Shown: piece after piece, positions 9,181-30,388 of the stretch
Position numbering within the stretch: the first letter of the stretch is position 1
Layout: every line of letters begins with the position of its first letter
Origin: a virus
DNA length: 34,642 nucleotides
Reading direction: 5' to 3' (one strand)
Virus record (IMG/VR): IMGVR_UViG_3300002447_000014
Location: 1 to 34,642 of that record
Position numbers and translations under genes: made by a program
The notes under the pieces: model-generated
What the model saw: the letters and a program-made list of their open reading frames with translations, nothing else
Told to the model about the DNA's origin: nothing
Databases searched by the model: none

Positions 9181-9209
9181 AAACTGCCTTTCTGTGCCTG
9201 TGTTAAAAA

Positions 9210-9326: not shown

Positions 9327-9355
9327 ATTATATACTTATTTGTAAATACTGTCAA
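9327..9355 (-). promoter_or_regulatory. Consensus sigma70 promoter of the tRNA-like gene
   Basis: TTGACA (9350-9355), 17-bp spacer, TATAAT (9327-9332) on the minus strand: a perfect host consensus. The -10 box ends 7 bases before the tRNA 5' end. The -35 box overlaps the start codon of the divergent radical SAM gene, so the two directions share about 35 bp. Confidence 0.85.
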
Positions 9356-10344
9356 TGAGCTTTTCAACCATTCCTTTCCAAAATATTGTACGGTTTGGGC
9401 AACGCACAATGCTAGCCAAACCATTATTTTCTACCAGTTGGATTTTGGGTAGATTCTGTAATTATAGTTGTAGCTATTGTTGGCCATATGCCCGTAGCGA
9501 CAAATTGGATCACCAGCCGCTTGAAGTGTATAAATCTACTGTAGACGAGATTAAGCGTCAAGCACGAGCTAATGGGTTTAACCAGTTCCATTGGTCGTTC
9601 AGCGGAGGTGAGCCTACTGCTTATAAACAATTGCCAGACTTAGTTAAACATTTGGACGAAAAGGAAAGTACCTACCAAAGTATACACATGACTACCAATT
9701 TGTCACCGGGAAGCAAATGGTGGAACACTTGGTGTAAGAATACTGAACTATTACAACGCCGTAGTATTACGGCCAGCTTCCACGATGAGTTTGCCAAGGA
9801 ACAAGAGTTCGGCGACAAGTGTTTACAATTACAATACGAGCTAGTACACGTTACAATCAATCAAGTTATGGTGCCAGAAAAGTTCTACGAACTCTATGAA
9901 CGCATGGAACGTTTTCACAACCGTGGAATCAACGTTACTTTAAAGCCTCAAAGTGATCCGACAGCGAGTGCGGTTGTTGAGGGTTATACTGATGATATGA
10001 TACACAAGATGCGTGAAGGATTTCCGCAACGTGCTAATGGTGAGGAACTTTATCAAATAGCATTATACGAAGCAGATGGAACAGAACACTTATTTGATCA
10101 AGCCGAGCGATTTAACGCATTTGGATTCAATAAGTTTAGTGGGTGGAATTGTAACGCTGGATACCAAAGTGTTATAATTAGAGGAACGGAAGTAAAACGT
10201 AGTTATAGTTGTCACGACCAACCATTAGGTACACTTTCGAACTTTAAATTATTTGACAGCCCGCAAGAATGTATAACTAATACATGTGTCAGTAGTGCTG
10301 ACAGTAAGATACCAAAGGAAATAAAATGGCTAAAAGAATCTTAA
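9355..10344 (+). CDS. Radical SAM enzyme
   Basis: A 329-residue radical SAM protein. Residues 35-42 (CNYSCSYC) are the CxxxCxxC motif that binds the [4Fe-4S] cluster, and SGGEPT at 83-88 is the SAM-binding motif. A C-terminal part with further Cys (CNAGYQS near residue 268, SCHDQPLG, then CITNTC) suggests an auxiliary iron-sulphur cluster, as in SPASM- or twitch-type enzymes that modify peptides or small molecules. Substrate unknown. It is the first gene of the island and its start lacks a Shine-Dalgarno; TAAATA lies 6 bases upstream of ATG. An alternative Met is residue 19. The 3' end overlaps the CysC/nucleotidyltransferase gene by 19 bases, suggesting linked function. Confidence 0.8.
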   Translation: MSFSTIPFQNIVRFGQRTMLAKPLFSTSWILGRFCNYSCSYCWPYARSDKLDHQPLEVYKSTVDEIKRQARANGFNQFHWSFSGGEPTAYKQLPDLVKHLDEKESTYQSIHMTTNLSPGSKWWNTWCKNTELLQRRSITASFHDEFAKEQEFGDKCLQLQYELVHVTINQVMVPEKFYELYERMERFHNRGINVTLKPQSDPTASAVVEGYTDDMIHKMREGFPQRANGEELYQIALYEADGTEHLFDQAERFNAFGFNKFSGWNCNAGYQSVIIRGTEVKRSYSCHDQPLGTLSNFKLFDSPQECITNTCVSSADSKIPKEIKWLKES

Positions 10345-11186
10345 TTATGGGATTACCTGGTTCGGGCAAAACCTATTTTGCTGAACGACTTAAAAAATAC
10401 ATAGAAGAAAATGGGGATTTATATAAAGTAAATCCAAATAGGTTGTTAAATTATGAAGGCATCCCGGGCCCTGACATGTTGAAAGTAGGAGTGGATTGGT
10501 TCAATGCCGATGATGTTCGTAAAAGATTCAACGACTGGGATTTTAGCCGTGAAGGGCGCATTCGTCAAAGTATCAGAATGTTTGATTTTGCTATCAACTG
10601 TACAGGTGATTTTGTTATCTGTGATTTTGTAGCACCGCTAGTTGAAATGCGTAACAACTTTAAAGCCGACTGGACTATCTGGATCGACACAATCGACGCT
10701 GGCCGCTTTGACGATACTAACAAAGCATTCGTTCCACCCGAGCAATATGATTTTAGGATAATCGAACAAAATGCTGAAAAGTGGGTCGAGTTTGTGGGCC
10801 AGCACATTTTAGAAAATAAACGTCGTCCTACATTTGATTGGCAAAAAGAGACGGTACAAATGTTAGGTAGGTGGCAACCTTGGCATGAAGGCCATCGTAA
10901 ATTATTTGAACGTTCTATTGCCAAAACAGGTCAAGTAGTTATTCAAATACGTGATTGCCAAGGCTGGCAAGGAAGCAACCCGTTTGCTATAGATCAAGTT
11001 AAGAGTTATATTAAACGTGACTTAGATCCGCTATTCCAAGGACAGTATGAAATACAAGTTGTACCCAACATTGTAAACATTACCTATGGTCGAGATGTAG
11101 GTTATAAAATCGAACAAGAAACATTTGATGACGCTACACACTCTATCTCTGCTACAAAAATCCGCAAGGAACTAGGTTTGAAATAA
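10326..11186 (+). CDS. CysC-like kinase fused to nucleotidyltransferase
   Basis: A 286-residue two-domain protein. Residues 1-160 form a P-loop kinase: Walker A GLPGSGKT (9-16), then FNADDVRKRFND and FSREGRIRQSIRM, the pattern of adenylylsulfate kinase (CysC). Residues ~175-286 form a nucleotidyltransferase with GRWQPWHEGH (182-191), containing the HxGH active site, and ISATKIR (275-281), the second signature of cytidylyl/adenylyltransferases. The pair suggests phosphorylation and nucleotide activation of one substrate. Related kinase/cytidylyltransferase pairs work in phosphoramidate decoration of capsules, though here the substrate is unknown. The start has an AAGGA site. It overlaps the radical SAM gene before it and the DUF2061 gene after it. 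Confidence 0.75.
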   Translation: MAKRILIMGLPGSGKTYFAERLKKYIEENGDLYKVNPNRLLNYEGIPGPDMLKVGVDWFNADDVRKRFNDWDFSREGRIRQSIRMFDFAINCTGDFVICDFVAPLVEMRNNFKADWTIWIDTIDAGRFDDTNKAFVPPEQYDFRIIEQNAEKWVEFVGQHILENKRRPTFDWQKETVQMLGRWQPWHEGHRKLFERSIAKTGQVVIQIRDCQGWQGSNPFAIDQVKSYIKRDLDPLFQGQYEIQVVPNIVNITYGRDVGYKIEQETFDDATHSISATKIRKELGLK

Positions 11187-11386
11187 TGGATAAGCCCAGC
11201 CGTAGCTTAGTAAAAACCATTACCTGGCGTATAACAGGTAGTGGTGCTACGTTTGGAATTAGTTATTTAATATCTGGAAATTTTGTTGTTGCTGGTAGTA
11301 TAGCAAGTATACAATTAATTACAAATACCGTACTATACTTTATTCATGAACGAGTATGGGATCGAATTAAATGGGGACGTAATTGA
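11186..11386 (+). CDS. DUF2061 small membrane protein
   Basis: A 66-residue protein with the DUF2061 pattern: RSLVKTITWRITGSGATFGI, then SYLISGNFVVAGSIASIQL, and the C-terminal YFIHERVWDRIKWG. Two hydrophobic segments cross the inner membrane. In bacteria DUF2061 proteins are encoded beside, or fused to, CysC-type kinases, so the location right after the CysC-like gene (1-base overlap TAATG) is informative. The role is unknown; it may anchor or support the kinase. It overlaps the next gene as TTGA. Confidence 0.8.
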   Translation: MDKPSRSLVKTITWRITGSGATFGISYLISGNFVVAGSIASIQLITNTVLYFIHERVWDRIKWGRN

Positions 11387-11976
11387 ATATTAATTTAGAT
11401 CACTTTCACTATTGGATGCAAGCCGTAAGGCAAAGTCCTGACCCAATGCGAACATTAGATTGTTTCTGGGCAGGGCAGATGAAAAGCAAAGATTGGTTGT
11501 GTAAACAATTACGCAAACATGTCAATAAGTTTGTTACGGTGGACATACACGGCGGCTGGAATGGTGTACTTGCTAGTATGCTGTTCCAAAGCGATGTGCC
11601 AGTTACTAGTATTCGCAGTGTAGACATTGATCCGGCATGTGAGCCTATTGCTAATATGATGAATAAAGCAGAGGAGATATACGGCAAGTTTCGTGCTGTT
11701 ACTGCTGATATGTGTGCTATCCGTAGTGATGCTGATGTAGTTATAAACACTAGCTGTGAACATATTACACAGGACCAATACGACTTGTGGTTAAGTGGCA
11801 TGCCGCATAACACATTATTTGTATTACAAAGTAACAACTATAACATACCTGAACATATAAGAATTGCCAACAGTTTAGATGAGTTTAAACAACAATGTAA
11901 TCTCGGTACTGTAAAGTGGGCTGGTGAATTGGAATTGCCACTTTACACCCGCTATATGATTATTGGGACTGTTTAA
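11383..11976 (+). CDS. Methyltransferase-like (Rossmann) protein
   Basis: A 197-residue protein that begins with TTG (TTGA overlapping the previous stop). A Rossmann-like core is visible: VTVDIHGGWNGVLASML (motif I-like, Gly-rich), then IRSVDIDP (acidic end of strand 2 for ribose binding), then VTADMCAI and ADVVINTSCEHI. The C-terminal portion (HNTLFVLQSNNYNIPEHI) fits the last strands of class I SAM-dependent methyltransferases. The acceptor is unknown. Its 3' end converges with and overlaps the minus-strand radical SAM gene by 17 bases. Confidence in the fold is moderate; in the reaction low. Confidence 0.65.
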   Translation: MNINLDHFHYWMQAVRQSPDPMRTLDCFWAGQMKSKDWLCKQLRKHVNKFVTVDIHGGWNGVLASMLFQSDVPVTSIRSVDIDPACEPIANMMNKAEEIYGKFRAVTADMCAIRSDADVVINTSCEHITQDQYDLWLSGMPHNTLFVLQSNNYNIPEHIRIANSLDEFKQQCNLGTVKWAGELELPLYTRYMIIGTV

Positions 11977-13039
11977 ATTCCGTAGTAGCTAACTTGCCAA
12001 ATTCGGCAGGGTCATTAAATCTTCCTTCAAAGGAAGAACACACTCCAGAACATATTAACAAGCGACCATTGTTGTAATCCTTGTCCCATCGTTTCTCAAC
12101 TTGGTTAAAAAATTCGCCTTGTACAATAGTATCCCAGTCTTGTTTGTGTAAGTCTATTAAATCACCGCCGGCATCGTTCCATAACTGTTTCCAACCATCT
12201 GGAACTGATACGTGTTTCTGTGCCCAAAAGTTTGAAGCCATAAAACAACAAGGAAACACATGACCTGTAAAATCTATATAAACATCTTGATGCTCTTTAG
12301 CATAACACTTAATACAACTATTGTTCGAATTCTTTAATAAATCATCGACTTTAACAACTTTAGGTTGGAACATTACTTTGTGTATCATCTCTTTCTGTCC
12401 TGGGGGTTGTATAAGTACCCCGCCAGTGCCGTAACGCTGTACACCCATGATGTCATCCATTAAAAATCTATGACTAGGTTTAACTATGAATTTCTTAAAT
12501 CCCATTTGCTCAGCAAGTGTACGTCCATCTTCAACTTGATGTTCGTTATGTTGAAACACAATAAATTGCCATAACGCAGTACCGCCTGCGGCAATAAATG
12601 CTCGAGCATTTTCCATCGCCTTCTTCCAACTTACATTTACACGATATATGTTGTTAGTATCTTCTAATCCGTCTAACGCAAATTGTACTTCGTCATCAGG
12701 CCCTAGTGCGTGGGCAAGCCTAGTCCACCAATCAGGACTTTTCATACCGCCGTTTGTGCTTACGTTAATTTTAAATTTACCTTTGGCACGGACTTTTTTG
12801 ACTACCTCAATAAAGTTTGGAGCGGCACACGGATCGCCTATAGATCCAGCAAATCGTAATATTTCTAAATTCTCGTAAACAGTAGATGGTATTCTATCAA
12901 ACACATCTGCTTGTAAGTAGCCTTCCTCAAACCAAGAATGATCTCCTGGTTTAATTTCACGAATACACTGCGGGCAAGCGGCATTACATATACCGCTATT
13001 CTCTACTTCGATTTCTCTAATTTTATGATAGAAGGTCAT
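11960..13039 (-). CDS. Radical SAM/SPASM protein
   Basis: A 359-residue radical SAM protein: CNAACPQC at residues 18-25 is the CxxxCxxC cluster motif. The segment FAGSIGDPCAAPNF replaces the usual GGEP with a GDP motif. FALDGLEDTNNIYR is the strand-turn region seen in SPASM enzymes. C-terminal Cys (SCIKCYAKE, then DFTGHVFPCCFMA, then CSGVC) form a SPASM auxiliary-cluster domain. It is a paralogue of 25986-27083: both share HNEHQV, DGLEDT, ENARAFI and FPCC. Its stop overlaps the convergent methyltransferase-like gene by 17 bases, and its start overlaps the kinase-like gene by 17 bases. Confidence 0.8.
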   Translation of the reverse strand: MTFYHKIREIEVENSGICNAACPQCIREIKPGDHSWFEEGYLQADVFDRIPSTVYENLEILRFAGSIGDPCAAPNFIEVVKKVRAKGKFKINVSTNGGMKSPDWWTRLAHALGPDDEVQFALDGLEDTNNIYRVNVSWKKAMENARAFIAAGGTALWQFIVFQHNEHQVEDGRTLAEQMGFKKFIVKPSHRFLMDDIMGVQRYGTGGVLIQPPGQKEMIHKVMFQPKVVKVDDLLKNSNNSCIKCYAKEHQDVYIDFTGHVFPCCFMASNFWAQKHVSVPDGWKQLWNDAGGDLIDLHKQDWDTIVQGEFFNQVEKRWDKDYNNGRLLICSGVCSSFEGRFNDPAEFGKLATTEFKQSQ

Positions 13040-13730
13040 TATATTTCTTTATAAGGTTGTTGATTAATTCTTCTGGGTAATTGCTTTTAAAACTCTCTAA
13101 CGCAACTTTTTGTAAATCAACACTTGCGTATGGTTTATCGATATCTAAGCCTGCGCTGTTCAGCACTTCTATTAGTTTATCCTGTCGGCTGTCGCTTATT
13201 TGTAATAACAAACTTCGTATGGTAATTCCAGTCTCAGCTTTGTCAAAGCAAAAGAACCAGTTGAATGGCGTTAGAACACCGTCAACTGCAACCCAACTAT
13301 TTGGATGTAAACTACATTTCAAAATGTTAGTGTCCCACATAGTAGTAATAAGATTAGTCCATTGCTCTTGCCAATTAGGTAGTACGTTATCGTAGCCATT
13401 GGCTGTTAAGCCTTGCATATAAAAATCATCACCGTGCCATTTTAAAAATATTCGTCTGTTTGCTGTATCTACGTCAACTAGATCTAATGTTGGCACAACT
13501 TTGGATGCTCGAGCATAGAATAGCAGTTCTCTGTTAAAACGGTCTGATAGCAGTTCGTCTGTCCATTTAAAATTCTCATGTACATAAATGTGGTATCCTT
13601 CTTCACGGTTAAAGCTCATACAAAATGTTTTCTTGTCTGGACTAACATACGGAGTATATACCAAATTGGCACGAACTTGCTCAGTGCCTTCTAAGTTGTA
13701 ATAATGGTTCCAATTTTTTAAATTTGTCAT
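13023..13730 (-). CDS. Kinase-like protein (APH/protein-kinase fold suspected)
   Basis: A 235-residue protein. NRELLFYARASKVVPTLDLV could be the first lobe helix and strand, and RRIFLKWHGDDFYMQ a hinge-like strand. LKCSLHPNSWVAVDGVLTPF and NWFFCFDK resemble the catalytic loop (H-x-N with DG and a later D) of small-molecule phosphotransferases, although the canonical HxDxxxxN is incomplete. If it is a kinase it may be divergent or inactive. It is upstream of, and overlapping by 17 bases, the SPASM radical SAM gene, so the two are probably co-expressed. Alternative: a fold of unknown type. Confidence 0.45.
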   Translation of the reverse strand: MTNLKNWNHYYNLEGTEQVRANLVYTPYVSPDKKTFCMSFNREEGYHIYVHENFKWTDELLSDRFNRELLFYARASKVVPTLDLVDVDTANRRIFLKWHGDDFYMQGLTANGYDNVLPNWQEQWTNLITTMWDTNILKCSLHPNSWVAVDGVLTPFNWFFCFDKAETGITIRSLLLQISDSRQDKLIEVLNSAGLDIDKPYASVDLQKVALESFKSNYPEELINNLIKKYNDLLS

Positions 13731-13773
13731 ATGATTTCTGATAACTACTAGTATTACTTAATTAGCCTTTATT
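13731..13773. promoter_or_regulatory. Divergent 43-bp intergenic region with shared 14-mer
   Basis: This gap separates the divergent kinase-like (minus) and oxygenase-like (plus) genes. It contains TAAAGGCTAATTAA on the minus strand (13758-13771). The identical 14-mer occurs on the plus strand at 15076-15089 in the next divergent gap. Each copy points in the direction of a downstream gene (13730 minus, 15094 plus), so it may be a promoter or translation element. No sigma70-like boxes are seen here. Confidence 0.4.
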
Positions 13774-14553
13774 ATGATCCGCGGAATAAATTCTCAACCC
13801 TACATTGATTTAGATCCTTACCTTGATATACAAGGCTTGCTAGATCTCCATTACAAAATTTGTAAGGGTATTGTACGATCCAAACACAAGAAAGAAGGCA
13901 ACATTGTTAGACCAGGTGGCTTTAACGATGCTTACGAGCTTAACTTTAAACCAACATTCCAAGCAGTAGATGAATACTTTGCCCTGCCAGAAGATCACGA
14001 GATTAGAAGATTAGGAAAAGAAATTGGCGAATGGGATAATCGTGATGAATTTGTATTGTTCTTAAAATTAACACTAGGCGCTTATGATCCGTATCAGTTT
14101 ATTTTTCTTAAAACTGAAGAAGGCGGTTGGGAATCACGTTTCGAAGAAAAAGCATGGACACCTGACGCTGAATATTTTCCTGAATTTAAACAGTGGATTG
14201 AAAAATTACAAGGCACAGTATTTGATCATATAGGAAGAATAATTATCTTTAAAGCAGAACACGATGGGCAGACTGCTTTACATAGAGATTTAATTTATCC
14301 AAATGAAACTGATTATTTTGATCACAGACACGAGTTCATACACTTACGCACACGATTAGACAGGGACTTCTATATATGGGATTCTGAAACAGATACTAAA
14401 GTCACAACAACATCTTATGCTATCTTTTTCAACGACCAGGACTGGCACAACGGTGGATGTTCAAACGTACAAACTTTTAGTATTAGAATAGATGGAAAGT
14501 TTACCGAAGAGTTTAGGCAACGTGTTGGCATTGCTCACTTAGCGAATTACTAA
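13774..14553 (+). CDS. 2-oxoglutarate/Fe(II) oxygenase-like protein
   Basis: A 259-residue double-stranded beta-helix protein. The candidate iron triad is H170-x-D172 (ALHRDLIYP) and H225 (DQDWHNGG); R238 (FSIRIDGKF) would bind 2-oxoglutarate. Such enzymes hydroxylate amino-acid residues or small molecules. It is a paralogue of 24680-25447: both start with a short PYIDL/PFMNL segment, share HRDxxYP and DWHxG and end in GKFTEEF or GHFTEEF. It stands alone on the plus strand; its stop overlaps the convergent oxygenase gene by 15 bases. Substrate unknown. Confidence 0.7.
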   Translation: MIRGINSQPYIDLDPYLDIQGLLDLHYKICKGIVRSKHKKEGNIVRPGGFNDAYELNFKPTFQAVDEYFALPEDHEIRRLGKEIGEWDNRDEFVLFLKLTLGAYDPYQFIFLKTEEGGWESRFEEKAWTPDAEYFPEFKQWIEKLQGTVFDHIGRIIIFKAEHDGQTALHRDLIYPNETDYFDHRHEFIHLRTRLDRDFYIWDSETDTKVTTTSYAIFFNDQDWHNGGCSNVQTFSIRIDGKFTEEFRQRVGIAHLANY

Positions 14554-15054
14554 TTGTAAACTAATCTTTGGTTCAAATCCAATGTTGGCAGCACCGTGCC
14601 ATGCCTTAGGATTTTCAAACTCGTAAACATCTCCAGCACGATAATCATCCAACATTTTACCTTCATATATAAAGATGTGGCCAGGCTGATAATCTTGCAT
14701 AGGGATCCAAAGTCTGCGTGTCTTGTTGCTAGTTACATCAAACGTATCTACGTGTAATGGGAATACTGATCCAGGATTTATTTTAGAGTACCACCAGTTA
14801 AACGGCCCGTCTATATCTATTGGTATTTGTAAGTCAGTCACAGCAGACATACCTAAGTGCCCGTAGTAATACATAAACCATTCTGCGCCTTTAAGCTCAT
14901 GCCCTAGTGACGACCATATAGATACTTGTTCTTGTTTCTCTATCTCTTTCTCAGTTTTATATGCAGTACGTTTATCGCCTTCACTTTCCAAAATGATTTT
15001 GAGATGATGTGGATTCACCCAATTTGGATAGTTGCCCAAGTATTTTATAGTCAT
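14539..15054 (-). CDS. 2-oxoglutarate/Fe(II) oxygenase-like protein
   Basis: A 171-residue protein with PGSVFPLHVDTFD (H101-x-D103) and AWHGAANIG (H153) as the probable Fe(II)-binding triad in a cupin-like barrel. NWWYSKINPGS and RRLWIPMQDYQPGH are strands typical of phage 2OG oxygenases. The C-terminal KISLQLVIR carries the basic residue expected near the 2-oxoglutarate site. The start has no Shine-Dalgarno; a TAAATA box lies 5 bases upstream (15060-15065). Substrate unknown. Its 3' end overlaps the convergent oxygenase gene; its 5' end faces the sulfotransferase-like gene. Confidence 0.7.
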   Translation of the reverse strand: MTIKYLGNYPNWVNPHHLKIILESEGDKRTAYKTEKEIEKQEQVSIWSSLGHELKGAEWFMYYYGHLGMSAVTDLQIPIDIDGPFNWWYSKINPGSVFPLHVDTFDVTSNKTRRLWIPMQDYQPGHIFIYEGKMLDDYRAGDVYEFENPKAWHGAANIGFEPKISLQLVIR

Positions 15055-15093
15055 AAAAATATTTAGTGTGCAGTTTAAAGGCTAATTAATTAT
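15055..15093. promoter_or_regulatory. Divergent 39-bp intergenic region with TAAATA box and 14-mer
   Basis: The minus-strand side contains GCACACTAAATATTTTTATG, ending in the start codon of the oxygenase gene. A nearly identical string (GCACATAAATATTTCTATG) precedes the plus-strand gene at 23097. The plus-strand side contains TAAAGGCTAATTAA (15076-15089) shortly before ATG 15094. TAAATA resembles the core of the T4 late promoter TATAAATA, but the distance to ATG would leave almost no leader. Confidence 0.45.
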
Positions 15094-15738
15094 ATGAATA
15101 AGTTTATTTTGTTTACCCTTGGAAGAACGGCTAGTACTAGTACGTTCAATTGTATTTTTAATAGTCTTAAAGCGGACTCTCCAACTGCCTTAGGCATTGA
15201 TAGAGGAATCTACGAAAGACACGAATGGCAACAGTTTAATGATGCTAGCCATAGTGTGTTTACATTCTTTAATGCTACTAAGGTCAAGAAACTACAAGAA
15301 GAACTCAAGGATCATAGCGAGTGGTGTTTGTTGCTAGTATCCCGAAAGGACTTTGCCGCTTGGCTATTGAGCAATGGTTCCTACAATACCACTAATAAAT
15401 CACATCCTGGTAAAGACTATGTAATTAAAAATCTAGCATTTAACAAAGAACAGTTTATGTTAGCTTATTGGAATTATAAGTGCTGGGAAAAAGCAGTATA
15501 CGAGCAAGCAGATACTTTTGATTTTGGAAGAGTTATAAGAATAGATTTTGATGATTTGATCAGCGATTGGTCAGGAGCCGGAAAATTAATCAACAACTGG
15601 GATTGGACTAACACAGAAGCGTTGATGGAGCTAGGTCCAACTACTAGCTGGCAAGCGGTAGAAAATATTGACGAAGTGTTATCGTGGATCCCTACAGATG
15701 ACCAACAACTAATAGACAACATTAAGAAACAACTATGA
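15094..15738 (+). CDS. Sulfotransferase-like P-loop protein
   Basis: A 214-residue protein that opens FILFTLGRTASTSTFN (residues 4-19), the 5'-phosphosulfate-binding loop pattern of PAPS-dependent sulfotransferases. The segment LLLVSRKDFAAWLLSNGSY fits the strand and helix with Arg and Ser that contact the 3'-phosphate. RVIRIDFDDLI is the strand before the C-terminal helices. The family transfers sulfate from PAPS to hydroxyl or amino groups; the acceptor is unknown. The CysC-like gene in the same island could, in principle, relate to PAPS supply. Its stop overlaps the twitch radical SAM gene as ATGA. Confidence 0.65.
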   Translation: MNKFILFTLGRTASTSTFNCIFNSLKADSPTALGIDRGIYERHEWQQFNDASHSVFTFFNATKVKKLQEELKDHSEWCLLLVSRKDFAAWLLSNGSYNTTNKSHPGKDYVIKNLAFNKEQFMLAYWNYKCWEKAVYEQADTFDFGRVIRIDFDDLISDWSGAGKLINNWDWTNTEALMELGPTTSWQAVENIDEVLSWIPTDDQQLIDNIKKQL

Positions 15739-19027: not shown

Positions 19028-19644
19028 TAGAATGAGTACTTCCACAAGTCGATATCTTTTTCAAACATCTTAGCAACTAACATTCTATTAGCATCGGAAT
19101 AATAGCCGTGATGTAAATCACGTTGCGACTCGTTAGTTTTTGGCAACGGGCGAAAGTCATTACATAGCTCTTGTACAACTACAAAGTCGCTGTCAATGCT
19201 TTCAAATTTAACTACGTGGTCAATTCCAGGACGTATGTAATCAGACTGTGGTGTGCCAGCACTTGACCAGTCATTAGGATGCATTTTAAATTCAGGCAGA
19301 TACTTAACCCAGTCATCAAATGATAAATCAGTATTGCCTGTTAACTTCTCAACAGTTTCCCAAAAGTAATCGTGCGACTTTGGAAAATACATTCCTTTAC
19401 GTTGTGTTAAGTAATGATAGCCGCTGACAACTCTATCCCACGGATTTCGTACTACTGTAAAAATAAAAGGAGATACGTGATTGTCCTGGACTAGCATTTC
19501 AGAACTTTCGTGATGCTTCCACTTTTTATAAGATGTAATATTAGGCAGTTCGTCTAACCAGTGAGTTACACTTGTACCGCCTGTTTTAGTTATGTGAATA
19601 AACGTTAACTCAGCATGAGGTGTAGTAAGATGCATTGTTGCCAT
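19027..19644 (-). CDS. Sulfotransferase family 2-like protein
   Basis: A 205-residue protein with FIHITKTGGTSVTHWL (residues 15-30), the 5'-PSB loop (K-T-G-G-T-S) of carbohydrate sulfotransferases. FTVVRNPWDRVVSGYHYL (62-79) is the 3'-PB motif with Arg66 and Ser74. The end (FEKDIDLWKYSF) is typical of Sulfotransfer_2 proteins. The enzyme would move sulfate from PAPS to a sugar or other hydroxyl group, in the cytoplasm; it has no signal peptide or transmembrane helix. It is flanked by TAATG overlaps with two radical SAM genes, so it is likely part of one modification pathway. Confidence 0.8.
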   Translation of the reverse strand: MATMHLTTPHAELTFIHITKTGGTSVTHWLDELPNITSYKKWKHHESSEMLVQDNHVSPFIFTVVRNPWDRVVSGYHYLTQRKGMYFPKSHDYFWETVEKLTGNTDLSFDDWVKYLPEFKMHPNDWSSAGTPQSDYIRPGIDHVVKFESIDSDFVVVQELCNDFRPLPKTNESQRDLHHGYYSDANRMLVAKMFEKDIDLWKYSF

Positions 19645-20891: not shown

Positions 20892-21507
20892 TTAAAATAT
20901 TAAAAATCTTATCCGTTAATTTAGCATGTGTTGCCGGTCCAGGATGACTACCATCTAACGCATTGTCAATCCATTCTATACCATCCATGTGTAAATTGTC
21001 TACATGGATTCTTGGAAATTCGTATTCACGTAACTCGTGTGGTGCCGCAGGGTAGTGTATATATTTTATACCTTTACTGTTTAAGTATAGACTAGCGTGT
21101 TGTAGGTAAATCCATGTACGCATAGAGTAATCTCGCTCACTCATCTGCTCCACCCATTTCTTTGCTACACCTGTATTCTTCCAAGCACCTAACCTACGTC
21201 TTAAAAATATCCATTTGAAGAATCGTGTGAACAGCATATCACGTAAGTAGTGAGACCACATTATAACTACTATATCATCTTGTTTAAAATCAAATTGTAG
21301 TATCTCATACAGTATTTCTAAATTACTTGATCCTGGGTAAGACTTGTTCACTAGCTCTACACCTAACTTGTCACTTAGTTGATTTGGCCAACCTAACTGA
21401 CTTGGCTTAGAACTGTGCATACTTTTATGTAGTAATGGCCAATCCTGGCAATCTTCTAATCCCTTGCCATAGGTATAAGAACATCCAAACGTTACGAGTC
21501 TTGACAT
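20878..21507 (-). CDS. SGNH/GDSL-like hydrolase
   Basis: The ATG at 21507 (MSRLVTFGCSYTYGKG) is chosen over an upstream TTG. FGCSYTYG is block I with the candidate nucleophile Ser10. PGSSN and MWSHY correspond to the oxyanion-hole blocks, and DGSHPGPATHAKL near the end is block V with Asp and His of the triad. SGNH enzymes are esterases or acyl hydrolases, often acting on O-acetyl groups of sugars or on lipids. It could remove or transfer an acyl group in the same modification pathway. Overlaps both neighbours (QueC-like before, twitch radical SAM after). Confidence 0.75.
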   Translation of the reverse strand: MSRLVTFGCSYTYGKGLEDCQDWPLLHKSMHSSKPSQLGWPNQLSDKLGVELVNKSYPGSSNLEILYEILQFDFKQDDIVVIMWSHYLRDMLFTRFFKWIFLRRRLGAWKNTGVAKKWVEQMSERDYSMRTWIYLQHASLYLNSKGIKYIHYPAAPHELREYEFPRIHVDNLHMDGIEWIDNALDGSHPGPATHAKLTDKIFNILNESK

Positions 21508-22211
21508 GCTATAGCCCAATCTCTTTCTTTACACCAAAAACATTCCCCGCATACTGGTACGTATTGACCAGGTGTATATGTTGCGTAGTTAATTTCTTTG
21601 AATTCGCCTTCACAACTTCTTGTCAGCTCAAACAAATCCATAATTTCTAATTTTTTATATTGTGCTAGTACCCACGATTTATCTACGAATCGAAAAGGAT
21701 GACTGGCAACACGACCCATATGAATCATGTATTCTAAATGTTTATTTTCTTCGGTTGGTTCTAAATCACGTTCAAGCATACCGTTAAACATTGCTTGCCT
21801 AGGATTACGTGTTACTGCATTAAAATAAGCACTTACATTATGTTTATGGCAAATAAATTCAGCATAGGCACGTTGTTGTATATTATCACCACTTACCTTC
21901 TTGCCATACTCATCAGTTAGATTGGGTCCTATATTACCGTATTCTATGTCTGGGGCAATGAAGTTAGTATGCCGTCTAAATGTTGTATGATAGAAACGCT
22001 GGAATAACCAATTGTAAACTCGATCAGCATCATGTTGTTGCCACGGGCGTGTTTTCCACATACGCACATGATTAATAATGTGTACTGTGACATTATGTTC
22101 TTTAGCAAGCTCGCACACCATGTAGGCTAGTAAGGCACTATCTGCGCCACCGCTTAGACTTACAGCAACATCTGTCCACGTCTTATCAAACGGTATGCTA
22201 ACTTGATTCAT
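21492..22211 (-). CDS. PP-loop ATPase, QueC-like
   Basis: A 239-residue protein. SLSGGADSALLAY (residues 18-30) is the SGGxDS PP-loop that binds ATP and adenylates a carboxylate or carbonyl. C200, C221, C224 and C227 (TRSCEGEF, then CGECFWCKERDW) follow the QueC zinc pattern (C...CGxCxxCxxR). QueC makes 7-cyano-7-deazaguanine, but QueD, QueE and FolE are not seen in the window. A related ligase or amidation role is therefore equally possible. It sits between a PLP-fold gene and an SGNH hydrolase in the minus operon. Confidence 0.7.
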   Translation of the reverse strand: MNQVSIPFDKTWTDVAVSLSGGADSALLAYMVCELAKEHNVTVHIINHVRMWKTRPWQQHDADRVYNWLFQRFYHTTFRRHTNFIAPDIEYGNIGPNLTDEYGKKVSGDNIQQRAYAEFICHKHNVSAYFNAVTRNPRQAMFNGMLERDLEPTEENKHLEYMIHMGRVASHPFRFVDKSWVLAQYKKLEIMDLFELTRSCEGEFKEINYATYTPGQYVPVCGECFWCKERDWAIACQDS

Positions 22212-23055
22212 TTTCCAAATACCTTATCAGTGGACTGACTCCAACAGGCTGTCCATTTTGTAGTGCCAAATATATACTGTTAGTGGGAGTCAAGCCGAAG
22301 TCTTTACATATTGTATAATATCTATCGCCGTGTGTCAACCACAAGTAGTCCGTTGGCAAGTTACGAATAAAATGCAATCCAATCATTGCCAGCGCACGAT
22401 TGTTCATTTTGAAATCGTTCATTATTGTAATCGAATCTGCCTTGCTATCTTTGGTCCAACGTAATCCTATCCTGTTCCACCCGAGACCAAGACCTTTGCT
22501 AAGACTGATGCCAACGGATCTAATAGCCACATGGCTAAAGTCAAAAGTAATGTCACGGCAACAACTAATCCAAGCACCGTCAATATGTACTGCAATGTTT
22601 TTAATTTTACACTCATGTAAAATCTCCTCCATATCCTGATGTGGAGCACCAATGCTAGGGAACGGCATTGCTATAATTAAAGGAATGTCTGGAATTAGCG
22701 AGCCCACATCTTTTACATACGCTAATTCTAATCTTTCATGGTATCTGTAATCGCCTCGCAATACTTGTACAGGCCCTTGCATATACAAATTATCTATAAA
22801 CTGTGTACATCCGTTTATAATATCAACACGATTAAAACTATCAAACCCTGTTAAGGTATTTAATTTTGAGTTAAAAATCCAATTCGTTGTCTCTTGTTTA
22901 AAACTAGTATAAACGTTATCAGTAATATCCTTATCTAGCTTCCCACACAATACATCTTGTATTAACTGCTCAATTTGATTGTCGTCCAACGGACTAGGTC
23001 TATCTGTTTGTAACCATTCAGTAGTGTACGATGTGGCAATGCGAGTATTTAACAT
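22198..23055 (-). CDS. PLP-dependent (fold-type I-like) enzyme
   Basis: The start is placed at ATG 23055, not 23070. It then lies at the same place in the inverted repeat as the start of the divergent gene, and the protein aligns from residue one with its paralogue at 23779-24696. HIDGAWISCC has an Asp that would contact the pyridine nitrogen, and SLSKGLGLGWNRIG carries the Lys expected to form the PLP Schiff base (about residue 187). These are features of aminotransferase/decarboxylase-fold enzymes. The protein is short (285 residues) for that fold. Shared segments with the paralogue are VQVL, YRYH, HIDGAWI and SPL(I/L)RYLE. The reaction is unknown; amino-acid-derived substrate assumed. Confidence 0.7.
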   Translation of the reverse strand: MLNTRIATSYTTEWLQTDRPSPLDDNQIEQLIQDVLCGKLDKDITDNVYTSFKQETTNWIFNSKLNTLTGFDSFNRVDIINGCTQFIDNLYMQGPVQVLRGDYRYHERLELAYVKDVGSLIPDIPLIIAMPFPSIGAPHQDMEEILHECKIKNIAVHIDGAWISCCRDITFDFSHVAIRSVGISLSKGLGLGWNRIGLRWTKDSKADSITIMNDFKMNNRALAMIGLHFIRNLPTDYLWLTHGDRYYTICKDFGLTPTNSIYLALQNGQPVGVSPLIRYLENESS

Positions 23056-23103
23056 AGAAATATTTACCATAGTTATAGTAGCACATAAATATTTCTATGT
23101 TAA
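23049..23103. repeat. 18-bp perfect inverted repeat at divergent start sites
   Basis: Arms at 23049-23066 and 23086-23103 are exact reverse complements (TTAACATAGAAATATTTA and TAAATATTTCTATGTTAA), 19 bp apart. Each arm contains a TAAATA box, five bases, and the ATG of one divergent gene (23055 minus, 23097 plus). The whole start region is therefore mirrored, including the first codons (ATGTTAA). It may serve as a divergent promoter or operator, or as a trace of inverted duplication. Confidence 0.75.
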
Positions 23104-23786
23104 CTAAGACACAATTTCAATTGCCGAAAGAACTATTTGACGAAGCATTTGCCCAAATAATGAACTTGTCGCAGTTTCCAGGCGGTGAGCGCAGAATAAT
23201 ATTAAATCAGCCAACTGGTAATTTCTTTTACGATGCTTGGCAAATCAAAGACGAATATAAGAATACAGTTTGGCAAAGAGTATTGGATACATTGCCGTTT
23301 GAAAAAGGTGAAGCACGGTTAATGAAATTAGATCAGGAAACTTGCTATACACTACATGCTGACATAGATGATAGGTGGCACTTAAACTTATCGGGTAACA
23401 ACTGTTTTTTAGTTGATTTGGATACACACAAACTTCACTCTACAGAAAAAGATTACACTTGGTGGAACATGGATGCTGGCCGAGTACATTCAGCAATAAA
23501 TTTTGGATCGCATGTTCGATATCAATTAGTGATAAGACAGTTGTTGTTGCATGGTAACATTGATAACCCTGTTAATATTAGAATTACACCTAACAACATT
23601 CCTGCTGATATTTTTAGATATAACTTTGACCAGATATATAGTCCGTGGCTAAATTATAAAAGCAAAGAAGGGCAGATAGCAAATTTTAGATTTGATGATA
23701 CTGGAATTTATTTTACAGTTGACAATCAGCATTTTGATCATATAAAAAACTTAGCTGGCCTGTTTTTTAAGGTAAACTATGAGTAA
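23097..23786 (+). CDS. Aspartyl/asparaginyl-hydroxylase-like 2OG oxygenase
   Basis: A 229-residue protein whose centre matches the aspartyl/asparaginyl beta-hydroxylase pattern: YTLHADIDDRWHLNLSGNN (H87-x-D89 and R93), CFLVDLDTHKLHST, then GRVHSAINFGSHVRYQLV (H131, R141). H87, D89 and H131 bind Fe(II), R141 2-oxoglutarate. The enzymes hydroxylate Asp or Asn in peptides; the target is unknown. The start lacks a Shine-Dalgarno and follows a TAAATA box within the inverted repeat. The stop overlaps the PLP paralogue by 8 bases, giving an oxygenase-PLP-oxygenase cluster. Confidence 0.75.
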   Translation: MLTKTQFQLPKELFDEAFAQIMNLSQFPGGERRIILNQPTGNFFYDAWQIKDEYKNTVWQRVLDTLPFEKGEARLMKLDQETCYTLHADIDDRWHLNLSGNNCFLVDLDTHKLHSTEKDYTWWNMDAGRVHSAINFGSHVRYQLVIRQLLLHGNIDNPVNIRITPNNIPADIFRYNFDQIYSPWLNYKSKEGQIANFRFDDTGIYFTVDNQHFDHIKNLAGLFFKVNYE

Positions 23787-24696
23787 CATATTTTTACCAG
23801 CGCCTGACTATTCAGACAATTATCTACAAACAGTTAAGTGCCACCCGTTTATTGATTCGCTACACGAGCAGTTGATGGAAAACGTTAGGACTAATAAAGT
23901 TAAATTAGATTTTTTAGATAGTTCATTTACTGCGGCTGATGTAACTAACGAAGTTACTAGTCCTATATTTGAAAAGTTTAAGAATACATTTAGACAACGG
24001 TTAGAACAATCTAAGTTAAATTCAATTAGAGGTTTCAACAAGTTTAAACGTGCTGATATTTGTCTGGGTGTTGCCCACTATATGGATACACTACATGCTA
24101 CACAAAATGTTCAAGTACTACAGGATGAATACAGATATCATACACTGATTAACCCTAAGTTGATTCCTAAAACAATTGACACGCTAGAGCCACGTAAGCA
24201 TTTAATTATTTCTGTTCCGTTTGCTAGGATAGGTAAAGTACATCCGCAAATGAATGAAATTTTAAATCGTTGCTTAGAATTAAAAATACCAGTACATATT
24301 GACGGAGCATGGATCACAGCGTGTCGCAATATTGATTTAGATTTAACACATCCAGCTATATGGAGTTTTTCTTCAAGTCTAAGTAAAGGGTACGGACTAG
24401 CTGGATGGAATCGTATTGGAGTACGGTGGTCTAATGTAATGTACGAAGATCCTATTACAATACTCAACGACTACCTCCAAATAAATACCATGTGTGTAGC
24501 AATAGGTAATTATTTCTTAGATAATGTGCCAGCTGATCATTTGTGGAATACACACGAACAACATTACAACAAAATTTGTAAAGATTTTAATCTGAGTCCA
24601 ACAGATGCTATTCACATGGCAACATCTGGTGTTAAGAATCTTGGGTTATCACCTTTACTAAGATATTTAGAGAGCAACAATGCTAAAATTAGCTAA
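23779..24696 (+). CDS. PLP-dependent (fold-type I-like) enzyme
   Basis: A 305-residue paralogue of 22198-23055 on the opposite strand. HIDGAWITAC (Asp175) and SLSKGYGLAGWNRIG (Lys203) give the probable PLP site. FNKFKRADICLGVAHYMDTL, VQVLQDEYRYH and SPLLRYLESN match the paralogue in order. Together they may form a heterodimer or act on related amino-acid substrates; both are inferences. AAGG before ATG provides a ribosome-binding site. It overlaps an oxygenase gene on each side (8 and 17 bases). Confidence 0.7.
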   Translation: MSNIFLPAPDYSDNYLQTVKCHPFIDSLHEQLMENVRTNKVKLDFLDSSFTAADVTNEVTSPIFEKFKNTFRQRLEQSKLNSIRGFNKFKRADICLGVAHYMDTLHATQNVQVLQDEYRYHTLINPKLIPKTIDTLEPRKHLIISVPFARIGKVHPQMNEILNRCLELKIPVHIDGAWITACRNIDLDLTHPAIWSFSSSLSKGYGLAGWNRIGVRWSNVMYEDPITILNDYLQINTMCVAIGNYFLDNVPADHLWNTHEQHYNKICKDFNLSPTDAIHMATSGVKNLGLSPLLRYLESNNAKIS

Positions 24697-25447
24697 CGGC
24701 AAACCGTTTATGAATTTAGAACAGTATCTTAACATTAATGAGTTACTGGATAAGAAGGATGACTTTTATTTCTTCTTTGCTAAAAACTGGCCGCAACATA
24801 GCGAATCGAATACTGCTGCCGGTATTAACTTTGAAGATCTAAACAAGCCCGCATTTAAAATGGCTAAGTTAGCATATTATGTATTACACGATTTAAAACA
24901 AAACGGCACAGATAAAGAAAAAGAACGCATTGCGTATTTTGAAGATAATAACGATAGATATGGACTCATGCGATATCTACAATTACAACATAAAGTATTC
25001 AGTCCTTACAGAACAATGCACTTGTTTAACTACGGTACTGGCCAGTTTAAAGATTGGGTTGACGAAGATATTAAACAATGGGTTAAAACTTGGCCGTTTA
25101 AAGAAATAAAACAAGTATCCTTCTTTTATATAGACCATTACATGCCTCAGGCTTGCCATAGAGATTTTAACTACTATCCATTCGAGGAAGGTGTGTTAAC
25201 TTTTGAACAACTTGAAAAACCTCATGATGTGCTATGGTTTAGATTTGATAAAGAGCGTGAAATGAATCTATACGATTTTGACGACGCTGGTAACGTAGTA
25301 CAGTGTATTCCTGTAGAAGGGCATATTGCTACATTTAACTATCACGACTGGCACGGTAATCTAACTAAGACGTTGCCGTATGCGACATTAACTTTTAATA
25401 TAGAAGGTCACTTCACTGAAGAGTTTAAGAAAAAGATTGGAATATAA
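24680..25447 (+). CDS. 2-oxoglutarate/Fe(II) oxygenase-like protein
   Basis: A 255-residue paralogue of 13774-14553. The probable iron triad is H160-x-D162 (ACHRDFNYYP) and H225 (YHDWHGN). The Arg of the paralogue (R238 in FSIRIDGKF) is replaced by Asn (LTFNIEGHF), so 2-oxoglutarate binding may be altered or use another residue. The C-terminus (GHFTEEFKKKIGI) matches the paralogue's GKFTEEFRQRVGI. The gene overlaps the PLP gene by 17 bases and the GNAT-like gene by one base (TAATG). Confidence 0.7.
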   Translation: MLKLANGKPFMNLEQYLNINELLDKKDDFYFFFAKNWPQHSESNTAAGINFEDLNKPAFKMAKLAYYVLHDLKQNGTDKEKERIAYFEDNNDRYGLMRYLQLQHKVFSPYRTMHLFNYGTGQFKDWVDEDIKQWVKTWPFKEIKQVSFFYIDHYMPQACHRDFNYYPFEEGVLTFEQLEKPHDVLWFRFDKEREMNLYDFDDAGNVVQCIPVEGHIATFNYHDWHGNLTKTLPYATLTFNIEGHFTEEFKKKIGI

Positions 25448-26001
25448 TGTATAAACTAGTTCCGTGGACACAAGAGCTAGACTTAACATCCTTTTACGAT
25501 AGTGCGGCAAGCCGTGGCTTTGAAAACAACGCTAATCAAAAGATTCTAGTAGATAGTTTCCGCAAAGAAACTAAAAGCCAAGTATGGATTTTATATTATA
25601 ATGATGAAGCTGTAGGTAGTGTTGCAGCGCATAGCCTACCTGAGTTGGGTGAGAATGCTTATCGTATATGTGCGAGAACGTGTGTGTTCACTGATAGACT
25701 TCCTATATCAACATTACGTGCTAGAGGAAGAACAATACAACAACACCAAAACGCAACAGCACAATTTTTTATACCAGCATGTATTGAGTGGTGTGGTGTT
25801 GATAGCAACATGTACATTTCAACCAATGAATCCCCAGTTGCTAGTCAACGCCTGGTACATAAGATTTATTGTCCTGCGCTTGTTGAGACTGGTGCTTTAT
25901 CCAAACATTGTGCAATGATATATAGAGGGCACGAACAAACGTTTTGGAAATTAAACCCAGTTGTATTTTTGAATCAACTTGAAACTTACGGACGCTGGTG
26001 A
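25447..26001 (+). CDS. GNAT-like acyltransferase (tentative)
   Basis: A 184-residue protein. QVWILYYNDEAVGSVAAHSL looks like beta strands 2-4 of the GNAT fold, ending in GSVAAH, and the segment ENAYRICARTCVFTDRLPI may follow the acetyl-CoA-binding strand. The usual Q/RxxGxG/A pyrophosphate loop is not clear, so the fold call is tentative. ACIEWCGVDSNMYISTNE in the middle suggests a late strand. It is last in the 23097-26001 operon; its stop overlaps the convergent radical SAM gene by 16 bases. Function unknown if not GNAT. Confidence 0.45.
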   Translation: MYKLVPWTQELDLTSFYDSAASRGFENNANQKILVDSFRKETKSQVWILYYNDEAVGSVAAHSLPELGENAYRICARTCVFTDRLPISTLRARGRTIQQHQNATAQFFIPACIEWCGVDSNMYISTNESPVASQRLVHKIYCPALVETGALSKHCAMIYRGHEQTFWKLNPVVFLNQLETYGRW

Positions 26002-27083
26002 AGTATTTCTTTACTAGTATATTGCTCTGAAGGTTTTGAAAATACTGGCGTCTTAAGAACACCACAAGCTCTAGCACATACAGTTAATTTCTTCTCAGCC
26101 CAAAACTTGTACCACACTGATTGATACTCCGGCGAATCAACAATATCTTTAATTGTATGCTGAGTAGCATCTAATTTATCTATCCCGCCTAATGCGTTAA
26201 TCAGTTCATTGTATTCGTCTAGCATTTGATAACGCACTGGAGCAAATCTAATGTCCTCGTCGAAGGAAGTATATGGTGTACTAGCAATCCAACAACACGG
26301 AAAAATCCTACCAAACGCATCTATATATACTTCTTTTAAATCCAATGCCTGACATTGTATTTCACTTTCGGCTACTAATTTCTTATGTTGTTTAATAATG
26401 TCTGTACTAATAAATTTAATTTCGCTGTACGTCGAAGGCTCTAAATTATAAATTACAGATCCTTGTTTGTTTAATACAGCATATTTCTCGCTATCAAAGA
26501 AGCGTGAGCTATCTTTCATAGTAAAATTTTCAAACCCTAGCTCAGTTGCCATCTGTCTTACATCATTTACTTGATGTTCGTTGTGCTTAAATCTTATAAA
26601 TGCCCACTCTGCTTTACCACCGGCATTGATAAATGCTCGAGCATTTTCTATTACTTTATTAAATGATGTACCGATGCGATAGATAGAATGAGTATCTTCT
26701 AAGCCGTCAATGGCAAACACTACACGATGATTTACTGGCAATGTCTTTGCTAACTTTATCCACCAATCGACATTACGGGCTCCGCCATTTGTGTGTATGT
26801 TAATAGTAACTGTTGGATCAACGCTAACAGCATACTCGCACATGTCTATCAATTCATTGTTTAGTATTGGATCTCCAAAGTTACCGCAAAAATAAAACAC
26901 ATCGATTTGTGATAGTACTTCTGGAGATACGATTATTTTAAATGTATCTAAGGTCCAGTTGTTAATAGTCAACAGCGGATTATCAACACCCCCGCGAACA
27001 TTCCTCGCACACATAGGACAACTGGCTTGGCAGTTGTTTGTTATTTCTAAGTGTAATTGTTTTAGCTCGCTAAATTTAAACAT
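25986..27083 (-). CDS. Radical SAM/SPASM protein
   Basis: A 365-residue paralogue of 11960-13039. CQASCPMC (18-25) is the cluster motif, and YFCGNFGDPILNNELI carries the GDP variant of the SAM loop. VVFAIDGLEDTHSIYRIG and ENARAFINAGGKAEWAFIR are shared with the paralogue. C-terminal Cys (IQCQALDLKE, FGRIFPCCWIAS, VCARACG) form a SPASM auxiliary-cluster region. Targets of SPASM enzymes are often peptides, but this is not shown here. The start overlaps the sulfotransferase-like gene by 8 bases, and the 3' end meets the GNAT-like gene. Confidence 0.8.
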   Translation of the reverse strand: MFKFSELKQLHLEITNNCQASCPMCARNVRGGVDNPLLTINNWTLDTFKIIVSPEVLSQIDVFYFCGNFGDPILNNELIDMCEYAVSVDPTVTINIHTNGGARNVDWWIKLAKTLPVNHRVVFAIDGLEDTHSIYRIGTSFNKVIENARAFINAGGKAEWAFIRFKHNEHQVNDVRQMATELGFENFTMKDSSRFFDSEKYAVLNKQGSVIYNLEPSTYSEIKFISTDIIKQHKKLVAESEIQCQALDLKEVYIDAFGRIFPCCWIASTPYTSFDEDIRFAPVRYQMLDEYNELINALGGIDKLDATQHTIKDIVDSPEYQSVWYKFWAEKKLTVCARACGVLKTPVFSKPSEQYTSKEILHQRP

Positions 27084-27831
27084 TCTTCAAATCCGGATTA
27101 TGTTCGTAAAACAATGCTGTAACTTTATCTTTAAGTATATTATATGTGTCAGTCAACTCGTCGTAGTTGGTTATAAGTTGTTTATAGTCGTACCCAGTTT
27201 CTATAGTGTTAGCTAATCCTGTTGGATAATGGTCTTTTACGTAATCAGTCATGTCTTCGTAATAGATTTCACTCCATGCTATATTTTTATTGTCTAGGTA
27301 CTTCTTTAGCTCTTGACTTATCAAGTCGTGCCAAATATAAATCATAACAGCAATATTATTAGACATAGGTTGCGCTTCAATAGCCATAGGTTTGTCGCCA
27401 CGGCCGTAGTGCCACTTGTCTGTTTTGTTAGCAATGAAGTAACTACAAATTGCATCAATGTGATTCTTACGTACAGTAAAGTAAATTTGATTGTATTGTT
27501 GAAAACCAAACAAGTCAAAATCTATTAGCTGACCGCTTGCTGGAAAGTAAGCTAACTGCGATGGGTGAACTTTGATAATAAAACTAGCTTTATTTTTTAT
27601 CTTAGACTGGAACTCGTTGAACTTGATTAAAAATTCTTCTTTAATAGATGTAGGGAAGTTAGGATCCCAAATTGGTTCCCATTGCGATGAGTGATAACAC
27701 TCCACTGGGAGTACGTTATACACATTTTTAATTTGGTGGTGTGGGATTTCAGGTATTTTGAAATAGTCCGCAATTACATTAAGTAGGTAAGTACTTCGCG
27801 AACGGGGGTGCCCAATAATACAAATTCTCAT
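27076..27831 (-). CDS. Sulfotransferase-like P-loop protein
   Basis: A 251-residue protein that begins MRICIIGHPRSRSTYLLN, a 5'-phosphosulfate loop pattern (GxPRSRST). IYFTVRKNHIDAICSYFIAN fits the 3'-PB region with Arg and Ser. The C-terminal half is helical (WHDLISQELKKYLDNKN) and ends in IYYEDMTDYVK, typical of the core strand and helix of this superfamily. PAPS-dependent sulfation is the likely activity; the acceptor is unknown. It is the last island gene, starting right after an inverted repeat next to the tail-fibre-like gene. The start has AAAGG 10 bases upstream. Confidence 0.7.
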   Translation of the reverse strand: MRICIIGHPRSRSTYLLNVIADYFKIPEIPHHQIKNVYNVLPVECYHSSQWEPIWDPNFPTSIKEEFLIKFNEFQSKIKNKASFIIKVHPSQLAYFPASGQLIDFDLFGFQQYNQIYFTVRKNHIDAICSYFIANKTDKWHYGRGDKPMAIEAQPMSNNIAVMIYIWHDLISQELKKYLDNKNIAWSEIYYEDMTDYVKDHYPTGLANTIETGYDYKQLITNYDELTDTYNILKDKVTALFYEHNPDLKNV

Positions 27832-29561: not shown

Positions 29562-29569
29562 ACTACTCC

Positions 29570-30175: not shown

Positions 30176-30190
30176 ATTATGCTCCTTTCT

Positions 30191-30361: not shown

Positions 30362-30388
30362 TTTGTACCTTTCACTGTTTAATGTATA

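Follow-up and report, generated by a model that had tools for sequence, protein, structure and literature searches.

Modules of radical S-adenosylmethionine (rSAM) genes are already known in T4-like phages. The Campylobacter phages CP220 and CPt10 (Firehammervirus), which are T4-like, carry 11-12 rSAM genes, and their interchangeable module consists of five rSAM genes and an amidinotransferase gene (PMC2853527). In pelagimyophages, rSAM cassettes have been placed in the host recognition cluster (HRC), a region that also holds lipopolysaccharide (LPS) genes (PMC7029224), and the marine T4-like genome TARA_ERS488813_N000010, about 183 kb in length, has 12 rSAM genes (PMC5332604). Here we analyse an island of tailoring-enzyme genes at positions 9355-27831 of the IMG/VR virus record IMGVR_UViG_3300002447_000014; the record, a 34,642-base fragment, is referred to throughout as the window. 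Much of the island proves to be a conserved cassette that may serve, late in infection, to tailor a structure used in host recognition.

Results

Conservation of the cassette

The island comprises 23 open reading frames (ORFs), g18-g40, densely packed and distributed over both strands; within operons they overlap by a few bases, and short gaps separate divergent starts (Table 1). Its G+C content of about 0.34-0.39 is slightly lower than that of the flanks (0.38-0.42). A preliminary description of the window had reported a 22-gene island here; its coordinates stand, but its gene count does not.

Searches with a pair of pyridoxal 5'-phosphate (PLP) enzymes and a pair of twitch-domain rSAM proteins yielded 157 IMG/VR loci, 110 after removal of overlaps; the twitch-rSAM query alone gave at least 586 confirmed relatives. 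Each of g18, g21, g22/39, g23, g24, g25, g27, g28, g29, g31, g33, g34 and g35 has homologues in 94-153 of the 157 loci, and the best-conserved core proteins have median identities of 59-75%. The order and strand that are kept can be written g18+ g21+ g39+ g27+ g28+ / g29- g31- g33- g34- / g35+ ... g25- g24- ... g23+ g38+. The 110 non-redundant loci share, in this order and on these strands, a core of about 13 families. As a control for search bias, the 29 loci of at least 15 kb found solely through the PLP gene were considered separately: all contain g27 and g31, and 27 contain each of g29, g39 and g35. Among 51 loci found through g31, g27 and g29 are each present in 50, g39 in 49, g35 in 47 and g21 in 42. 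Because the same set is linked in order across more than 100 loci of uncultured phages, the genes form a conserved unit; the preliminary description had allowed that they might prove unlinked in relatives, and they are not. A putative phage-borne pathway thereby becomes a well-defined target instead of a scatter of auxiliary genes.

The remaining genes are less constant. Accessory g19, g20, g26, g30, g32, g37 and g40 turn over among relatives, where other accessory families appear, including B12-type rSAM proteins, rSAM proteins with an N-terminal zinc ribbon, Asp/Asn hydroxylases and, named by eye, SDR-like and GT-like (glycosyltransferase-like) proteins. An accessory amidinotransferase (family c32), homologous to that of CP220, occurs in 10 related loci and not in the window. 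Another recurrent family that is absent from the window, c14, is about 440 residues long, lacks a Pfam match and is found in 36 loci (for example L135, 1680-3002) as well as in chromosomal arrays of Bdellovibrionota. A single-sequence locus search with g36 found nothing, and searches of cultured phages with g31 and g36 gave no match.

Enzyme families and their active sites

Seven of the island's proteins are rSAM enzymes, four are HxD...H oxygenases and two are PLP enzymes of fold type I. The island further encodes a PP-loop protein, one protein each with a kinase fold and a methyltransferase fold, and a single clear sulfotransferase. Most of the families named in the preliminary description are recovered. 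All seven rSAM proteins contain CxxxCxxC together with further cysteines of the SPASM/twitch type, and all are matched by PF04055, g39 just under the cut-off. The two that were assigned twitch domains, g27 and g31, both belong to NF033640 ('N_Twi_rSAM'). SPASM clusters had been claimed for at least two proteins; that of g31 is secure (1.3e-10), but the matches of g22 and g39 fall under the cut-off. None of the four proteins likened to 2-oxoglutarate (2OG) oxygenases (g24, g25, g35 and g37) passes Pfam, though HxD...H is kept in the relatives of the first three. The PLP-fold pair (g34, g36), the CysC-nucleotidyltransferase fusion (g19), the QueC-like PP-loop protein (g33) and the tail-fibre-like neighbour (g41) are supported. 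Of three supposed sulfotransferases only g30 has statistical support, the resemblance of g26 and g40 being one seen by eye, and the SGNH hydrolase assignment of g32 corresponds to a Pfam match that is present but sub-threshold.

In the rSAM families CxxxCxxC is intact in 229/229, 146/155, 195/195 and 65/65 relatives, and the catalytic lysine motif of the PLP enzymes is conserved in 82 of 82. Because the catalytic motifs hardly vary in any core enzyme family tested (Table 1), the core enzymes are predicted to be active and under selection rather than debris. Many of these dozen or so conserved families have no Pfam assignment, yet their active sites are nearly invariant.

Structure predictions extend some of these readings. 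The AlphaFold model of g34 is a compact fold-type-I PLP protein whose nearest relatives in the PDB are threonine-phosphate decarboxylase (CobD) and aminotransferases. For g21, which belongs to no Pfam family, the model indicates a class I SAM-dependent transferase fold. Nicotianamine synthase is its top fold match, but the TM-scores equal those of other methyltransferases, and the specific assignment was rejected. A viperin-like role for g28 and g29 was also set aside, the match being limited to the rSAM core. PDB profile searches with g21, g33, g34 and c14 gave no credible match.

Insertion with a tail-fibre gene

The island and the Mtd_N fibre gene g41 lie between a gene for a tRNA-like RNA and g42. 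In the conserved lineage the left flank consists of g14-g17 followed by this RNA. Several relatives have an empty site: in L223 and L249, 70 nt devoid of core genes separate the boundary RNA from the start of g42, and in L226 g43 begins 99 nt after this RNA, with no cassette gene between. Elsewhere among the relatives the slot is occupied by a fibre gene alone or by other cargo. Because relatives show the slot empty or differently filled, cassette and fibre form one insert at the tRNA-like RNA site. The fibre gene lies immediately beside the cassette in six relatives and the window.

Larger records with such loci measure 116-364 kb. Fifteen of 16 contain rSAM genes, 14 of them with 8-19 copies, and nine encode gp23, the T4-type capsid protein; the carriers with a capsid gene are classified on this basis as T4-like. 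In addition, rIIA and rIIB lie near the island, adjoining g42-g45 (phrog_612, 3e-127; phrog_609, 2e-79).

The slot holds other cargo in L281, L225, L253, L290, L299 and L238, recognised by eye as DctP- and TctC-like binding proteins, PP-loop, ATP-grasp, desaturase and B12-rSAM proteins. Its conserved right flank (window positions 29100-30877) encodes a P-loop kinase (g42), a calcineurin-like phosphoesterase (g43) and a dual-specificity-phosphatase-like protein (g44). In L171, twelve tRNA genes (565-2175) stand directly left of the cassette; this contig was binned as Neisseriaceae and is probably a phage contig.

Late-promoter-like signals

The 188 divergent gaps within the loci have a median length of 43 nt. 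Two sequences are enriched in them, ATAAATAT (107 occurrences) and TATAAATA (51), whereas no 8-mer occurs more than 12 times in shuffled gaps. The sequence TATAAATA is the T4 late promoter consensus. Across the 110 loci, [TC]ATAAATA is found near 133 of 518 operon-first genes versus 10 of 1568 inner genes, and shuffles average 16.5. The motif (C/T)ATAAATATTTC ends mostly 4-5 nt upstream of the operon-first ATG. It is probably a T4-late-like promoter and, because it ends so close to the start codon, would give leaderless or nearly leaderless messages. Genes led by a Shine-Dalgarno sequence, such as the neighbouring g43, contrast with the motif-led operon-first genes. In the window, elements like TATAAATA stand at operon starts (Table 1), and the core motif TAAATA also lies upstream of the fibre gene g41, at a greater distance. 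A consensus scan of the island as a whole showed no excess of sigma-70-like promoters or terminators. Action late in infection, which the preliminary description had proposed, thus gains evidence from sequence, since T4-late-like motifs are concentrated at operon-first genes.

A tRNA-like RNA at the boundary

The RNA at the left boundary combines an acceptor stem of 7 bp with a T-arm of 5 bp and an encoded ACCA, as in canonical tRNAs, but a hairpin of variable length replaces the anticodon arm, and the canonical 7-nt loop on a 5-bp stem is absent. ARAGORN does not call it in the window, and an Rfam search of the window returned no family for it, the one chance-level match lying elsewhere. In an alignment of 28 copies, bases pair in 97.5% of cells, and both sides have changed in 13 of 23 pairs, beyond what any of the 500 shuffles or any slid control gives. 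A pattern scan recovered 79 further loci, with acceptor stem and T-arm kept in 76 and ACCA in 74. Of 110 copies, 92 have in front of them a sigma-70-type promoter that matches 10 or more of the 12 positions, and its -10 box always ends 6 nt before the RNA.

The D-arm sequence resembles that of tRNA-Leu, and tRNA-Leu(taa) genes are among the canonical tRNAs that score best under the RNA model (35-36 bits). In E. coli, leucyl-tRNA synthetase does not read the anticodon. The boundary RNA is accordingly described as a conserved, anticodon-less tRNA-Leu-like gene, and it constitutes a separate small discovery. That it might be an aminoacyl carrier for the cassette is weakened by its presence in the cassette-free L223, L226 and L249 and its absence from some cassettes. 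Because it occurs with and without the cassette, it is treated as a landmark of the site and not as part of the pathway. The adjacent g17 (147 aa, 8860-9303, minus strand) reads, as listed, through the RNA; the true start probably lies near 9180, where the protein would begin with the signal-peptide-like MKKALLVLLLITNTAMA.

Table 1. Positions in the window of the cassette genes, the fibre gene, the boundary RNA and promoter-like elements
Feature	Position	Strand	Evidence or remark
tRNA-like RNA gene, left boundary	9210..9320	-	R1 model 117.6 bits; covariation
Sigma-70-type promoter of tRNA-like RNA, TTGACA-17-TATAAT	9327..9355	-	12/12 consensus match
Late-promoter-like GTAAATA	9342..9348	+	6 nt upstream of g18 ATG
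g18 radical SAM, C-terminal Cys cluster, core	9355..10344	+	PF04055 46.5 bits; homologue in 124/157 loci
g19 P-loop kinase fused to nucleotidyltransferase, accessory	10326..11186	+	phrog_10255 1.5e-44
g20 DUF2061 membrane protein, accessory	11186..11386	+	PF09834 4e-22
g21 class I SAM-dependent transferase fold, core	11383..11976	+	AlphaFold2 pLDDT 95, PDB fold matches; 126/157 loci
g22 radical SAM, SPASM-like, core, paralogue of g39	11960..13039	-	PF04055 38.7 bits
g23 protein-kinase-like fold, core	13023..13730	-	Profile A12 vs PDB 2.7e-6
g24 Fe(II)/2OG-type oxygenase, core	13774..14553	+	HxD...H in 65/65 relatives
g25 Fe(II)/2OG-type oxygenase, weakly AspH-like, core	14539..15054	-	HxD...H in 94/94
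Late-promoter-like CTAAATA	15060..15066	-	5 nt upstream of g25 ATG
g26 possible sulfotransferase, accessory	15094..15738	+	By eye only; no family match
g27 radical SAM, N-terminal twitch/SPASM, core	15735..17156	+	NF033640 409.5 bits vs cut-off 170
g28 radical SAM, C-terminal Cys cluster, core	17153..18235	+	PF04055 50.9 bits
g29 radical SAM, C-terminal Cys cluster, core	18137..19045	-	PF04055 47.5 bits; likely start 19027
g30 sulfotransferase, accessory	19027..19644	-	PF03567 1.2e-9
g31 radical SAM, N-terminal SPASM/twitch, most conserved core gene	19644..20891	-	NF033640 323.7 bits vs 170; 153/157 loci, median 75% identity
g32 SGNH/GDSL-like hydrolase, accessory	20878..21519	-	PF00657 0.0032, under cut-off
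g33 PP-loop ATPase, QueC-like C-terminal Cys motif, core	21492..22211	-	SGGxDS + CxxCxxC in 66/66; phrog_1550 3.2e-6
g34 fold-type-I PLP enzyme, core	22198..23070	-	AlphaFold2 pLDDT 90, CobD/aminotransferase fold; likely start 23055
Late-promoter-like GTAAATA	23061..23067	-	Upstream of likely g34 start (second ATG)
Late-promoter-like ATAAATA	23085..23091	+	5 nt upstream of g35 ATG
g35 Fe(II)/2OG-type oxygenase, core	23097..23786	+	HxD...H in 92/92
g36 second PLP enzyme, paralogue of g34	23779..24696	+	42% identity to g34 over 295 aa
g37 oxygenase, paralogue of g24	24680..25447	+	6e-13 to g24
g38 GNAT-like by eye, accessory, recurrent	25447..26001	+	61/157 loci; no family match
g39 radical SAM, SPASM-like, core	25986..27083	-	PF04055 25.7 bits, just under cut-off; phrog_21308 8.6e-26
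g40 possible sulfotransferase, accessory	27076..27831	-	By eye only; no family match
g41 tail-fibre-like protein, right end of insert	27890..28963	-	PF18454 Mtd_N 5.5e-10; adjoins cassette in relatives

Discussion

Function of the cassette

We tentatively favour, with somewhat less than even confidence, the reading that these genes form one late biosynthetic cassette that tailors a host-recognition structure, most likely a virion adhesin or fibre; the unity of the pathway, its lateness and its target are all inferred. What the sequences show is the linkage of the genes, their fixed order, catalytic motifs that are intact, insertion alongside a fibre gene, late-like promoter motifs and the lack of a precursor peptide. 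On this view the cassette and a tail-fibre gene occupy a fixed site in T4-like phages as a joint insert, and short T4-late-like promoters ahead of the operon-first genes would drive late transcription of the cassette. The rSAM, Fe(II)/2OG-type, PLP, PP-loop, kinase and transferase enzymes that it encodes might then install several unusual groups on the host-recognition structure, and the target would most probably be an adhesin or fibre of the virion produced at the same time.

The enzyme types and the variable numbers of paralogues suggest repeated C-H chemistry, by rSAM proteins and oxygenases, combined with group transfer. A connection with host recognition is indicated by the late-type promoters, by the co-insertion of a fibre gene in this lineage and by the fibre genes that flank an island in an unrelated phage, Pelagibacter phage Mosig EXVC030M. 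It is probable that the phages run real multi-step chemistry tied to host recognition.

The variable paralogue number suits several sites on one large substrate. It is possible, though doubtful, that the enzymes work as a multi-site modification machine with which the phage hyper-decorates its own adhesin, proteusin-like in degree but acting on a virion protein. If so, the chemistry of a tail fibre, beyond its sequence, would be exchangeable as a module between phages. Diverged versions of the cassette are present in the cultured phages Mosig and CP220, so mass spectrometry of virions could reveal chemical modification of the adhesin directly.

Several observations weigh against modification of an adhesin. 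The fibre gene also occurs without the cassette (L273, L253), and Mtd_N was detected in just about 10 relatives. The chromosomal arrays of Bdellovibrionota have no evident phage fibre. Small-molecule or sugar chemistry would account more readily than direct modification of a protein for the PLP, nucleotidyltransferase, PP-loop and amidinotransferase genes, and neither a modified residue nor a substrate motif was identified.

A serious rival, though one that we consider rather unlikely, is an alternative in which the cassette makes a free small molecule, derived from an amino acid or a nucleotide, that aids the infected cell or the phage, and the fibre gene is adjacent because the site is a cargo hotspot. 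PLP, PP-loop, kinase-nucleotidyltransferase and SAM-transferase genes are typical of such pathways, the model of g21 matches nicotianamine synthase and small-molecule methyltransferases, other metabolic cargo occupies the slot in relatives, and chromosomal versions exist in Bdellovibrionota. Yet the cassette showed no recurrent gene for export or resistance, a metabolite would have little time to help under late-like promoters, and fibre adjacency recurs in the unrelated Mosig.

As a second serious rival it is conceivable, if unlikely, that the enzymes build or modify a glycan or lipid of the host surface late in infection, for example against re-adsorption of progeny to debris or against superinfection. 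The sulfotransferase g30 and a GT-like family (c24, by eye) found in 18 loci are in keeping with this idea. So are the two NDP-sugar-transferase folds of the CP220 module, the UDP-Ara4N-type aminotransferase and carbamoyltransferase of the Mosig island, the LPS genes of pelagimyophage HRCs (PMC7029224), and PagP, which lies close to the rSAM genes of Vibrio phage K566. The core, however, has no glycosyltransferase or sugar-nucleotide pathway, c24 being accessory, and tailoring by rSAM proteins and oxygenases dominates.

The preliminary description had also entertained independent cargo genes. That auxiliary metabolic genes simply gathered in a hypervariable region, with no common pathway, is very improbable; the turnover of the seven accessory genes is what it would predict, but for the core it is largely refuted by linkage and fixed order, with active sites nearly invariant, and was rejected. 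Least credible is a cluster for a ribosomally synthesised and post-translationally modified peptide (RiPP), in which the rSAM/SPASM proteins would mature a small peptide encoded in or near the island: the extra cysteines of all seven rSAM proteins are common in peptide maturases and the g18/28/29 profile aligns along its length with SkfB (7.5e-8), but a systematic small-ORF search of the cassettes found no conserved precursor, in agreement with the preliminary description, and no RiPP recognition element (RRE)/PqqD domain is among the Pfam matches of the window proteins at E<=0.01.

Comparison with known systems

The nearest island in cultured phages is that of Mosig, which lies between tail-fibre genes and VrlC. 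It contains homologues of g34 (1.9e-20), g21 (1.5e-19), g22/39 (2.1e-27), g18/28/29, g32, c15 and c28, but has few rSAM genes, none detected of the N_Twi type, and a different gene order. As in pelagimyophage HRCs, the tailoring genes of the window adjoin a tail-fibre gene, g41; unlike them, the window island is not situated between VrlC and gp14, its neighbours being g42-g47 with rIIB and rIIA.

The resemblance to the CP220/CPt10 module lies in a T4-like carrier, a block of rSAM genes (seven in the window) and empty sites in relatives. CP220 rSAM proteins match the g22/39 profile at 1e-27 to 1e-30 and also the g18/28/29 profile, and its amidinotransferase matches c32 of the related loci. In contrast, the stretch of CP220 that was tested lacks the g21, g33, g34, g24, g25 and g35 families, so that it has no oxygenase/PLP/PP-loop core; the window has no amidinotransferase, and host and site differ. 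TARA_ERS488813_N000010, known through a description of its Fe-S genes only, is alike in its T4-like type and its dozen rSAM genes, and Vibrio phage K566 has four N_Twi rSAM genes.

The Bdellovibrionota arrays share the NF033640 rSAM family, with homologues of c14, c15, the PLP enzymes and g22/39 nearby. They differ in being chromosomal, in having more N_Twi copies, mostly at about 25-50% identity, and in lacking the conserved phage order. One of them, located on a 917-kb contig, adjoins genes recognised by eye as rpoD and dnaG. In Bdellovibrionia metagenome-assembled genomes (L166-L170), about ten or more N_Twi rSAM genes accompany Asp/Asn-hydroxylase-like, PLP and amidinotransferase-like genes.

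Measured against the open-access full texts on the rSAM modules of T4-like phages, what is new here is the larger size of the locus, its oxygenase/PLP/PP-loop core, its definition as a conserved cassette, the type of its promoters and the RNA at its border.

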